A stretch of DNA of 64,000 nt from contig JAATFL010000016.1 of assembly GCA_015655215.1 (NCBI GenBank), forward strand, positions 1 through 64,000, written 5' to 3'. The stretch's first letter is position 1; each line of letters starts with the position of its first letter. The translations under genes and the position numbers were made by a program. This stretch comes from Coriobacteriia bacterium. Lineage in GTDB: Bacteria; Actinomycetota; Coriobacteriia; Coriobacteriales; RUG033. The notes beneath the pieces are model-generated. The model had not been told where the DNA came from, did not search any database, and saw only the letters and a list, made by a program, of their open reading frames with translations. Positions 34,309 to 60,631 of the stretch are shown here, piece by piece.

Positions 34309-35271
34309 CTAGGCAAGCGCCTCCACGAGGGTCGAGAGGTTGTCGTACATCACCGAGAAGTAATCGTCCCCAGCCGCCACCTGCGCGTCGGTGAGCCCCT
34401 CGAGCGGATTGATCGTGGCGGTCGTCGCACCGGTATCGCTTGCGATCGCCTGGGCCACCTTGGGACTTACCAGGTCCTCGAAGAAGATGGTGGTCACGTG
34501 GTTCTCCCCGACATACTCCTCGATCTGGACCATACGGGCCGGATCGGGCTCCGCATCGGCCTCGAGGCCTTCGATGCCCATCTGCGTGAGGCCGTAGGCG
34601 TTGCACAGATAGCCATACGCCTCATGGGCGGCGACGATGTCGTGCTTGGAGCAGGCGGCGAGCTGCGCGGAGAACGCCCCGTCGAGCGCATCGAAATCAT
34701 CGTCGTAGGAGGCGCGGTTCGCCTCGTACACGGCCGCATCGCCGGAGTCGACACGCGACAGGGCTTGGGCGATGGTCGCCATCTCCTGCTGAGCGTTGCG
34801 GGGAGCCAGCCATACGTGGGGGTCGTACGCCTGCCCCCCGTCGGCATCGGGACTGTCGAGCAACGTGATACCGTCGCTGGCCACCACCACCGTGAGCTTG
34901 TCGTTCGCCAGGGAGGAGACGAGGTCGTCCGACCATGTCTCCATCTGGACGCCGTTCAAGATCAGCACGTCGGCCTCCTCGAGCGCGGCGATATCCGTCG
35001 TCGTGGGCTCCCACTCGTGCGGCTCCGTACCGTTGGGCACGAGGACCTGCACGTCGAAAAGGTCGCCGGCGACCTTTTGCGTCAGATCGTACAGAGCGTA
35101 GAAGCTCGCATACACCTTGAGTCCCACCCCGTTCGATCCATCGGTAGCCATGCAACCCGTCAGCGCCGCGATGGCACCCGTCGCACCGAGGGTCGCCGCC
35201 AGGGCGATGAAGGAACGTCGGCTCACGCCGGGGGGCGGAAAGGTGGCGTCGTCTGTTGCGAGGTCGTCCAT
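34309..35271 (-). CDS. znuA: Zinc ABC transporter substrate-binding lipoprotein
   Basis: This 320-residue cluster A-I binding protein has a twin-arginine-like signal (SRRSF, 17-21), a hydrophobic stretch and a lipobox LTGC with C40 as the probable lipidated residue. Metal-ligand histidines appear in TEPHEWEP, DPHVWLAP and AAHEAYGYL. The His-rich loop of classical ZnuA is short. It is the first gene of znuACB, divergent from the Fur-family gene. A twin-arginine lipoprotein is slightly unusual for this family. Confidence 0.9.
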   Translation of the reverse strand: MDDLATDDATFPPPGVSRRSFIALAATLGATGAIAALTGCMATDGSNGVGLKVYASFYALYDLTQKVAGDLFDVQVLVPNGTEPHEWEPTTTDIAALEEADVLILNGVQMETWSDDLVSSLANDKLTVVVASDGITLLDSPDADGGQAYDPHVWLAPRNAQQEMATIAQALSRVDSGDAAVYEANRASYDDDFDALDGAFSAQLAACSKHDIVAAHEAYGYLCNAYGLTQMGIEGLEADAEPDPARMVQIEEYVGENHVTTIFFEDLVSPKVAQAIASDTGATTATINPLEGLTDAQVAAGDDYFSVMYDNLSTLVEALA

Positions 35272-56973: not shown

Positions 56974-57834
56974 CTAGGAGGTCGCTTCACATAATATGCC
57001 CTGATAGATGGCGTAGTCCTCATCCTTGAACACATCGAAGATGACGCGAAGCGTTCCGGGGTGGTCGATGAGCCAACCACGCACCGCCGCCACGGCGATC
57101 TGTGCCGCCTCTTGACGGGGAAAGCCGAACACGCCGGTCGAGATGCAGCAAAACGCCACCTCGTGGATGTCGTCATGCTGCAGGCTGATGTCCAGGCACG
57201 ACGTGTAGCAACGCGCCAGCGTCGTGCGGGAGAGCTTCGTGGGGGTACCGTCGACGATAGGGCCCACGGTATGCAGCACGTACGTGGAAGGCAGGTTGAA
57301 CGCGGGGGTTATCTTGGCATACCCGGTATGCTCACGCTCTCCCTGCCGTTCCATCAGGTCGCTGCAGTAAAGACGCAACTGGACCCCCGCGTAAGTGTGA
57401 ATCGCGTTGTCGATGCAGAAGTGCCCTGGCACGAAGCAGCCAAGCAACGAGTTGTTCGCCGCGTTCACGATGGTGTCAGCGCCCAGGCGGGTGATGTCAC
57501 CGCGGATGAGAAACGTGCGGTCATCGGGAGGCCGTGACCCGATGGGTACGAGGTTCCCGGTGGCGATCACGTCGCCACGCTCCCTGAGACGACGTCGCAG
57601 ATACGCTCCCTCGATGGCAAGGTACTCATCCGAGACAGGCTCGGGAGGGCGTGTGTTGACGAGATCCTGATAGACTCGTCGGGCACCCTCCAGTGTTTCG
57701 GGCATCTCGGGGTTCATCACCGCGCCACGCACGACCCGCTCCTTGGAAAGCACGTCGATGAGGTACGAGAGCTGCTCGCGTTCGGATAGGGCATCCGGGT
57801 TGGACAGGGTGTCGGAATCCAGGGCGTCATACAC
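56974..57834 (-). CDS. Zinc-containing macrodomain protein-ADP-ribose hydrolase
   Basis: This 286-residue protein is read from a GTG. An N-terminal helical region (1-100) precedes a macrodomain with GDITRLGADTIVNAANNSLLG and a zinc site C133, H138 and C140 (GCFVPGHFCIDNAIH), then HTVGP and the STGVFGFP loop. This matches Zn-macrodomains of the SAV0325 type, which remove ADP-ribose added by SirTM sirtuins in Staphylococcus and Streptococcus. No SirTM, GcvH-L or LplA2 is adjacent here, so it stands alone. Confidence 0.87.
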   Translation of the reverse strand: MYDALDSDTLSNPDALSEREQLSYLIDVLSKERVVRGAVMNPEMPETLEGARRVYQDLVNTRPPEPVSDEYLAIEGAYLRRRLRERGDVIATGNLVPIGSRPPDDRTFLIRGDITRLGADTIVNAANNSLLGCFVPGHFCIDNAIHTYAGVQLRLYCSDLMERQGEREHTGYAKITPAFNLPSTYVLHTVGPIVDGTPTKLSRTTLARCYTSCLDISLQHDDIHEVAFCCISTGVFGFPRQEAAQIAVAAVRGWLIDHPGTLRVIFDVFKDEDYAIYQGILCEATS

Positions 57835-57969: not shown

Positions 57970-59325
57970 CTACTCGATGTCCGTCTCGTCGGGTTCATCG
58001 GCCATCTCGATGGAGATGCCCTTCTTCCGATAGTACAGGAACATGCAGAGACCCACGAAAATCCAGATACCACCTGCGATGTGCGCCGGCGTCCCCGCGT
58101 TGATGAGCACGTAGGTGATGATGACGAAACCGATGAGAGGTGAGATGAGGTGCAGGAAGAAACTCCTGGACTTCTCCTTCACCGTGTAGAAGTAGATCAC
58201 GGAGATGTGCAGGAGGATGAAGCCGGACAACGCGCCGAAGTTCACCATCGACGAGAGCGTGTTGAGCTGACCTACGAAGAACAGCACGAGGACCGCCGAA
58301 ATGACGCCCACGAGCAAGATGGCGTTGCCAGGGACCTTCCTCTTGTTGATGCTGCACAGGAAATGGGGAAGTTGCCTATCGCGAGCCATGGAGTAGAGCA
58401 AGCGAGAGGTGGCGGCCTGCGCGGCCATGGCGTTGGCGATGCCCACCGCAAGCACGTTGCAGATGTAGAACGCGGTGACGACGCCGGAGCTCGAGGCCTT
58501 GCGAATGGCATCGAAGAACGCGGTGTTGACCGCGTCGTCGCCGACGATCTCCGAGAAGGGACCGGAAACCATGCAGGCGAGCCATGTCTGGATGATGAAC
58601 AGGACCCCGACGATGACGAGCGCGACGATCATGGCACGTCCGGCTGTGGAACGCCCGCCCTTCGTCTCCTCGGCCAGCGTGGAGATACCGTCGAAGCCAA
58701 GGAAGCTGAGCACGGCGACGGAAAGTGCGGCGGCGAGCATGGCAGGGGTCATCACCTCGGGATCCCAGATGGGCTGGATGGACCAGGCCGCACCGGGAAC
58801 GGAGCCCGTGACGATGGCCGACCCGAAGATGTAGATGAGCACCACGAGGAAGACGAGCTCCATGATGAGGAAGATGCGGTTCATCCACTTGAGCGAGCTG
58901 ACGCCCCTGATGTTGATGATGACGTTTATCGCCACGAAGATGAGCGCCCACATCCACTGCGGCGTTCCGGGGAAGATTCCCGCCATCGAGACCGCGGCCA
59001 TGACGTAGAGCAGCGTGGGGACCAACAGGTAATCGAGCAGCATGAGCCAGCCAGCGAAGAACCCGAGGGTTGGATGCAGCCCCTTCCCCACGTAGTTATA
59101 GACGGATCCCGCCATGGGGATGGCCTTTGCCATCTGGGAATACGACAGGGCCGTGAACACCATCGCCACCATGCCGATGAGGTATACCAGCGGAACCATG
59201 CCGTTGGAGAGGTTGTACACCGTGCCGAAGATGGTCCAGGGCGCGATGGGCACCATGAAGATCAGACCGTAGATGAGAAGGTCCATAAAGGTCAGGGAGC
59301 GATTGAGTTCCTGCTTGTACCCCAT
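57970..59325 (-). CDS. APC-superfamily amino acid/polyamine permease (body of the gene)
   Basis: These 451 residues from the ATG at 59325 span about 12 membrane helices. They include LIYGLIFMVPIAPW, GSVYNYVGKGLHPTLGFFAGW and FLGFDGISTLAEE, typical of the APC/PuuP group. No ribosome-binding site precedes this ATG. The same frame continues upstream through a TAG (59341-59343) to a well-placed ATG at 59421, so the normal start may be lost. The permease could be made by re-initiation or readthrough, or the gene could be a recent amber mutant. Confidence 0.8.
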   Translation of the reverse strand: MGYKQELNRSLTFMDLLIYGLIFMVPIAPWTIFGTVYNLSNGMVPLVYLIGMVAMVFTALSYSQMAKAIPMAGSVYNYVGKGLHPTLGFFAGWLMLLDYLLVPTLLYVMAAVSMAGIFPGTPQWMWALIFVAINVIINIRGVSSLKWMNRIFLIMELVFLVVLIYIFGSAIVTGSVPGAAWSIQPIWDPEVMTPAMLAAALSVAVLSFLGFDGISTLAEETKGGRSTAGRAMIVALVIVGVLFIIQTWLACMVSGPFSEIVGDDAVNTAFFDAIRKASSSGVVTAFYICNVLAVGIANAMAAQAATSRLLYSMARDRQLPHFLCSINKRKVPGNAILLVGVISAVLVLFFVGQLNTLSSMVNFGALSGFILLHISVIYFYTVKEKSRSFFLHLISPLIGFVIITYVLINAGTPAHIAGGIWIFVGLCMFLYYRKKGISIEMADEPDETDIE

Positions 59326-59340
59326 CTTGTTGAGCTGCTG

Positions 59341-59421
59341 CTAGGGCGTCAGGTCCTGCATCGCCTCGATGGCGTCCTGCCTGCTCTGAGGTGCACCACC
59401 CGTTTGCGAAGTCTCGGTCAT
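59341..59421 (-). other. Twenty-six-codon upstream reading frame ending in an in-frame amber codon
   Basis: The ATG at 59421 follows AAGGAGAG by 4 nt and encodes MTETSQTGG to DLTP before a TAG at 59343-59341. It is in the same frame as the permease, with only five sense codons (QQLNK) between the TAG and its ATG. The residues look like the cytoplasmic N terminus of the permease. A CAG to TAG change in a run of CAG codons would explain it, as would sequencing error. Confidence 0.65.
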
Positions 59422-59514
59422 AGCTCTCTCCTTGTCGTGTTTGTACGCTTACAGCCACCCGTACGCGCGTACGGACATCCCCTACTGCACGCCGCCCGCC
59501 GTGGGACGGCACCT

Positions 59515-60456
59515 CTATCGACACGTACCGGTAGCTGGGTCATCGTGTGCGGCAAGGAAACGGCCGACGATGCGGAAGAACTCCTCCGGCTTCTCGAGAT
59601 GCGAGCAATGGCTGCAGCCCTCCATGACCACCGATCGAACGTCGCTGATCTTGTCGACGAATGGCTGCCAGCAGAGAGGGGTGGCCTCATCGAACTCGCC
59701 GGCAAGCACCAAGGTGGAAGCCTGGATGAGGGAGATGCGGTCCTCGATGGTCCAATCCTTGAGCGTCCCGATGACATGGAACTCGTTGGGGCCGTTCATC
59801 GTGTTGTAGACGGTCGGGTCGACGGCGATGGCCGCTTCGGAGTCCACGTACTCCTTGGGTTCGACGGCCATTCGGTGCACGTGAAGCGTGTCGTACACCT
59901 TCGTGGCCCACACGTACTCGGGGTCGCCGTAGGTTCCGTCGGCCTCATGACGGGCCAGAGCGTCCCGGACGTCACCGGGCAGTTCGGCGAGGAGGGTGTT
60001 CGCAGCGGTTATCCAGCGCTCCATGGAGGCGAGCGTGTTGCAGAGTGAGAGCGAGACGAGGCCCACGGGTTGCGTGACGGCTATCTCGCTGCCGAGCATG
60101 CCACCCCACGACTGGCCAAGCAGATGGTAGGTCTCGAACTCACCGGGAAAGCGTGTCTGGAACGCGTCGAGCAGGTTGAAGAACTCCCGCACGAACAGCT
60201 CGGGGGTCCAAAACCCGACGGGGGCGTCGGGACGCTTCGTCGAGTTACCGCAGCCATACTGGTCGTAGAGCACGACGGCACGACCCGTGCGATCGGCCAG
60301 CTCGGCGAGGTTATCCACGTAGTTATGGCAGAATCCGGGACCGCCGTGCAAGACGATGAGCGGGTAGGCACCCGCACGTGGGACGTCGGGCCGAGTCACC
60401 TTGACCCAGGTGACGCCGCATTCAAAGGGGATGTGCATGATGGTCTCGCTTGACAT
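59515..60456 (-). CDS. Alpha/beta hydrolase, proline iminopeptidase family
   Basis: The 313 residues from the ATG at 60456 (GGAGGG site) contain the HGGPG oxyanion motif at 37-41, the nucleophile S116 in GQSWGGM, and a late aspartate/histidine pair (GEFDEATP, CSHCSHLE). The family removes N-terminal proline or hydrolyses proline amides. It lies 93 bp after the permease gene start, in the same direction but upstream of it, so the two may serve peptide or amino acid use (inference). Confidence 0.87.
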   Translation of the reverse strand: MSSETIMHIPFECGVTWVKVTRPDVPRAGAYPLIVLHGGPGFCHNYVDNLAELADRTGRAVVLYDQYGCGNSTKRPDAPVGFWTPELFVREFFNLLDAFQTRFPGEFETYHLLGQSWGGMLGSEIAVTQPVGLVSLSLCNTLASMERWITAANTLLAELPGDVRDALARHEADGTYGDPEYVWATKVYDTLHVHRMAVEPKEYVDSEAAIAVDPTVYNTMNGPNEFHVIGTLKDWTIEDRISLIQASTLVLAGEFDEATPLCWQPFVDKISDVRSVVMEGCSHCSHLEKPEEFFRIVGRFLAAHDDPATGTCR

Positions 60457-60631
60457 GGACCCTCCAATTCCTCGACATTCCGCCGTCGAAATTCGAATCG
60501 CCCTATCGTATCCCAAAAAACCTTGAACATGTTTACTAACCGTAACTTTTCGACAACAGGCAGGGACTGCGGGCGAGGTGCAGGCGAACCGATCGGAGAG
60601 ATCGCCGTAGAAGCGACGATGGTCTGCATAT

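Follow-up and report, generated by a model that had tools for sequence, protein, structure and literature searches.

An APC-family amino acid permease gene on the minus strand of the window (the whole stretch of 64,000 nucleotides that was analysed) is interrupted by an in-frame amber codon in its N-terminal tail. This interruption is best read as a nonsense change confined to this lineage, or else as a one-base error in the draft assembly, and the tail that it falls in is cytosolic and variable. The finding is an ordinary one, a private nonsense mutation or a base error and not recoding. We consider it probable that a private single-base nonsense change arose in the tail and that the permease is probably still made, through reinitiation at the ATG at 59325; that the change is a mutation rather than a base error, and that reinitiation rescues the gene, are points that we infer. 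The features concerned are as follows.

59425 to 59434, minus strand: Shine-Dalgarno (SD) region of the ATG at 59421 (-8.3 kcal/mol).
59341 to 59421, minus strand: severed N-terminal tail of 26 codons (the apparent 'leader' ORF) plus the stop, from the original start codon; aligns collinearly with the tail of L026, the closest relative.
59341 to 59343, minus strand: in-frame TAG (amber) in the permease N-terminal tail, read from the sequence and aligned to a Glu codon in L026.
59323 to 59325, minus strand: candidate restart codon ATG, 15 nt past the stop and without an SD, as judged from sequence and SD energy; its Met is an internal residue in 8 of 29 relatives.
57970 to 59325, minus strand: body of the APC-family amino acid permease, intact, 451 aa from the internal ATG (PF13520, E 6.7e-35; PF00324, E 1.3e-34).
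59515 to 60516, minus strand: proline iminopeptidase-family hydrolase, intact, the upstream neighbour outside the feature (TIGR01250, 216 bits, cut-off 168).

Read on the minus strand from 59421 to 57970, the frame gives MTETSQTGGAPQSRQDAIEAMQDLTP, the stop and then QQLNKMGYKQELNRSL..., with 26 codons between the SD-preceded ATG and the TAG at 59343-59341. Past the TAG, the frame continues as QQLNK-MGYKQELNR... and meets no further stop until the permease's own TAG at 57972-57970. The first ATG after the interruption is that at 59325-59323. The codon before the TAG is CCC and those after it are CAG CAG, so the CAG CAG context given for both flanks in an earlier note on this DNA holds for the 3' side only. 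The site is not a homopolymer, and the base directly after the stop is C.

The two candidate start sites differ strongly. The SD of the ATG at 59421 (AAGGAGAGAGCT) has an energy that only about 5% of internal ATGs match, while the ATG at 59325 has no SD (+0.3 kcal/mol), a value that 83% of internal ATGs match or beat; these energies were computed against a generic anti-SD, which may differ from the genome's own 16S tail. It had been claimed earlier that a well-served ATG is cut off from the permease body by the TAG and that the downstream ATG has no ribosome-binding site, and both statements are confirmed.

From its match to PF13520 (121 bits, cut-off 27), which covers residues 17-409, the product that begins at 59325 belongs to the APC amino acid permeases; a search against NCBIfam reached no cut-off, and no substrate is assigned. 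The body forms an uninterrupted frame of 451 codons with no frameshift and carries a strong coding signal. Since the Pfam AA_permease_2 match begins at residue 17 of this product and the PDB matches 5oqt and 6f34 begin at residue 7, the transporter core is kept; the best matches to solved relatives as a whole begin at residues 4-7, and the transporter domain therefore does not extend into the tail that precedes the ATG at 59325. The gene thus has the whole intact core of APC superfamily amino acid permeases (PF13520/PF00324; TIGR00909; 5oqt/6f34; CAT-type transporters), but it differs from them in that its variable cytosolic tail is severed by an amber codon and that no NCBIfam cut-off is reached.

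The origin of the stop was examined by comparison with L026, whose permease is 69% identical. The window's QSRQDAIEAMQDLTP-stop-QQLNK-MGY aligns with MAGEKDIAALQNLTP-E-EQLKA-MGY of L026 without gaps and in register on both sides of the stop. When the 26-codon leader was shuffled, 2 of 100,000 shuffled versions scored as well against the L026 tail, and the leader is therefore not a chance open stretch. At the position of the stop L026 has a glutamate codon, not the CAG for which a comparison with relatives had been suggested. Six identical residues precede the stop, and at five of them the two genes use different synonymous codons; most of the identical residues after the stop also differ by synonymous codons. 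Such differences at identical residues indicate that the protein sequence of the tail was constrained both before and after the stop position until recently. Together with the alignment, this constraint implies that the gene in the window was recently one frame, and a tail kept as protein until recently makes a leader peptide arisen de novo, or an ancestral stop, implausible.

In the wider comparison, the window genome is the only one of its genus in the comparison set, and the single other genome of the family yielded no ortholog at the threshold. Across the order, a relative of the permease was found in 85 of 399 genomes, and 29 of these loci were read. A class-wide search for closer relatives added none, and scans of genome_contigs and viral_contigs returned remote matches or nothing. 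In all 29 relatives the tail is unbroken and begins at an ATG that follows an SD and lies 14-57 codons ahead of the aligned start of the body (the start codons were chosen by SD energy and are in that sense inferred); three stops flagged as internal among the relatives proved to be terminators at gene ends. The tails vary in length and sequence, with greater similarity in the few residues that directly precede GYKQEL. The relatives in which the methionine of the ATG at 59325 is an internal residue are L026-L032 and L052. The ATG at 59325 was rejected as an inherited start, since an open tail with a better upstream start is present in each relative sampled; relatives that begin at this ATG with a conserved ribosome-binding site, which had been named as a result that would overturn the idea of an interrupted gene, are thus absent from the sample. 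The relevance of the finding is mainly to annotation, in that gene callers will place the permease start at 59325 and miss the inherited start at 59421.

On the explanation that we favour, a single-base change in the window lineage only would have created the TAG from a sense codon, probably one for Glu, within the variable cytosolic tail. Ribosomes recruited by the strong SD of the ATG at 59421 would terminate at the TAG after 26 codons and then reinitiate at the ATG at 59325. The restart product would lack only the variable tail and keep the whole transporter domain, probably at a lower yield. The severed tail looks dispensable. It is established, according to work cited in PMC6728339, that ribosomes can reinitiate at an ORF-internal methionine once they have terminated at an ORF-internal stop. 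In the same study, loss of the SD cut reinitiation by 20-80% in six of the seven gene pairs tested and increased it in the seventh, which predicts that the missing SD at 59325 would reduce expression and not necessarily abolish it. The window shares with termination-reinitiation after a 5'-proximal nonsense codon (PMC6728339 and work cited there) a good upstream initiation site, an early stop and, close to that stop, an in-frame ATG within 15 nt; it differs in that reinitiation here is a prediction from sequence and that the restart codon has no SD. If the change is real, it adds a further natural case of a 5'-proximal nonsense codon that the cell probably tolerates through restart. Of the four options raised in the earlier note, a nonsense mutation or a base-call error fits the comparative evidence and re-initiation is retained as the likely rescue, whereas programmed readthrough and a functional leader peptide find no support.

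A single-base consensus error, which would leave the real gene uninterrupted and ordinary, is a possibility to be taken seriously, though we hold it to be unlikely. The genome is a draft in 38 contigs that is 79% complete, the interruption is known from a single record, and all 29 relatives are uninterrupted. However, the site is not of the homopolymer type, and no second clear stop inside a gene came up among the 224 called genes of a 264 kb scan. The cases flagged in that scan were attributed by eye to gene boundaries or to antisense frames, and the assembly thus shows no obvious excess of errors.

It is doubtful that the stop abolishes useful expression and that the gene is a very young pseudogene. 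The stop sits past the sole good initiation site, and since the restart ATG has no SD, restart may be inefficient, and the gene could in effect be silent. Against this, the 451-codon frame is otherwise undamaged and has its strong coding signal, the restart ATG follows the stop by just 15 nt, and the part that would be missing is the variable tail.

We regard it as very improbable that the TAG is read through, by a programmed mechanism or a suppressor, to yield the full-length permease, and equally so that readthrough of a lineage-specific amber codon occurs often enough, perhaps under regulation, to give long and short permease forms. Sense sequence lies in frame on both sides of the stop, and a C directly after a stop codon is a comparatively leaky context. 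The earlier suggestion of programmed readthrough is nevertheless at odds with the relatives, 0 of 29 of which carry a stop at the corresponding position. In a codon-usage scan of the window and 200 kb of sampled stretches (L059-L068), the terminators of 218 called genes were TAG in 105, TGA in 88 and TAA in 25; within the window alone, TAG ends 22 of 53 genes, including the permease and the upstream hydrolase. Release factor RF1 is present (487.7 bits, cut-off 423). A reassigned UAG would be expected to be rare as a terminator, to go with loss of RF1, or both, and neither is seen here. The checks for pyrrolysine and suppressor genes proposed earlier gave, in this 79% complete genome, a best match to pyrrolysyl-tRNA synthetase (PylS) of 20.9 bits against a cut-off of 178, and no CUA-anticodon tRNA among the 30 tRNAs identified; weak PylS matches below the cut-off also occur in 12 control genomes. 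The heavy use of TAG as a terminator argues strongly against efficient amber suppression, and with RF1 present, PylS below its cut-off and no UAG-reading tRNA found, recoding and programmed readthrough are both unlikely. Amber reassignment and pyrrolysine use were rejected on these grounds. With pyrrolysine-using or amber-suppressing organisms the window shares an in-frame TAG inside a gene; unlike them, its genome shows no PylS above the cut-off and no CUA-anticodon tRNA among those found, and it has RF1 and TAG as a common terminator. The TAG in the window therefore lends no support to amber recoding in the lineage. As a separate observation, TAG as the commonest terminator in the sampled stretches is unexpected in a genome of 63% GC, as TGA is usually favoured at such composition.

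A role for the 26-codon ORF as a regulatory leader peptide that acts on the permease through coupling or attenuation is scarcely credible: the ORF has its own SD and ATG and lies directly upstream of a transporter ORF, but it is homologous and in register to the L026 permease tail and so is the severed tail itself, the RNA fold around both starts has no excess structure (z 1.05), and none of the 29 relatives has a separate leader, and the leader or attenuator was rejected on the homology and the unremarkable fold.

As for the neighbourhood, the hydrolase ends 93 nt before the ATG at 59421 on the same strand. A hydrolase of this kind also lies next to the permease in two, and only two, more distant relatives (L037, L048), which hints at a pair for peptide or proline use. 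Directly downstream of the permease lies a macro-domain protein-ADP-ribose hydrolase (NF003163, over the cut-off; 56974-57834, minus strand). Elsewhere in the window, a TAG at 34309-34311 (minus strand) is directly followed by an in-frame ATG whose SD (-9.3 kcal/mol) lies inside the preceding gene, which looks like a normal pair of adjacent genes rather than an interrupted one.
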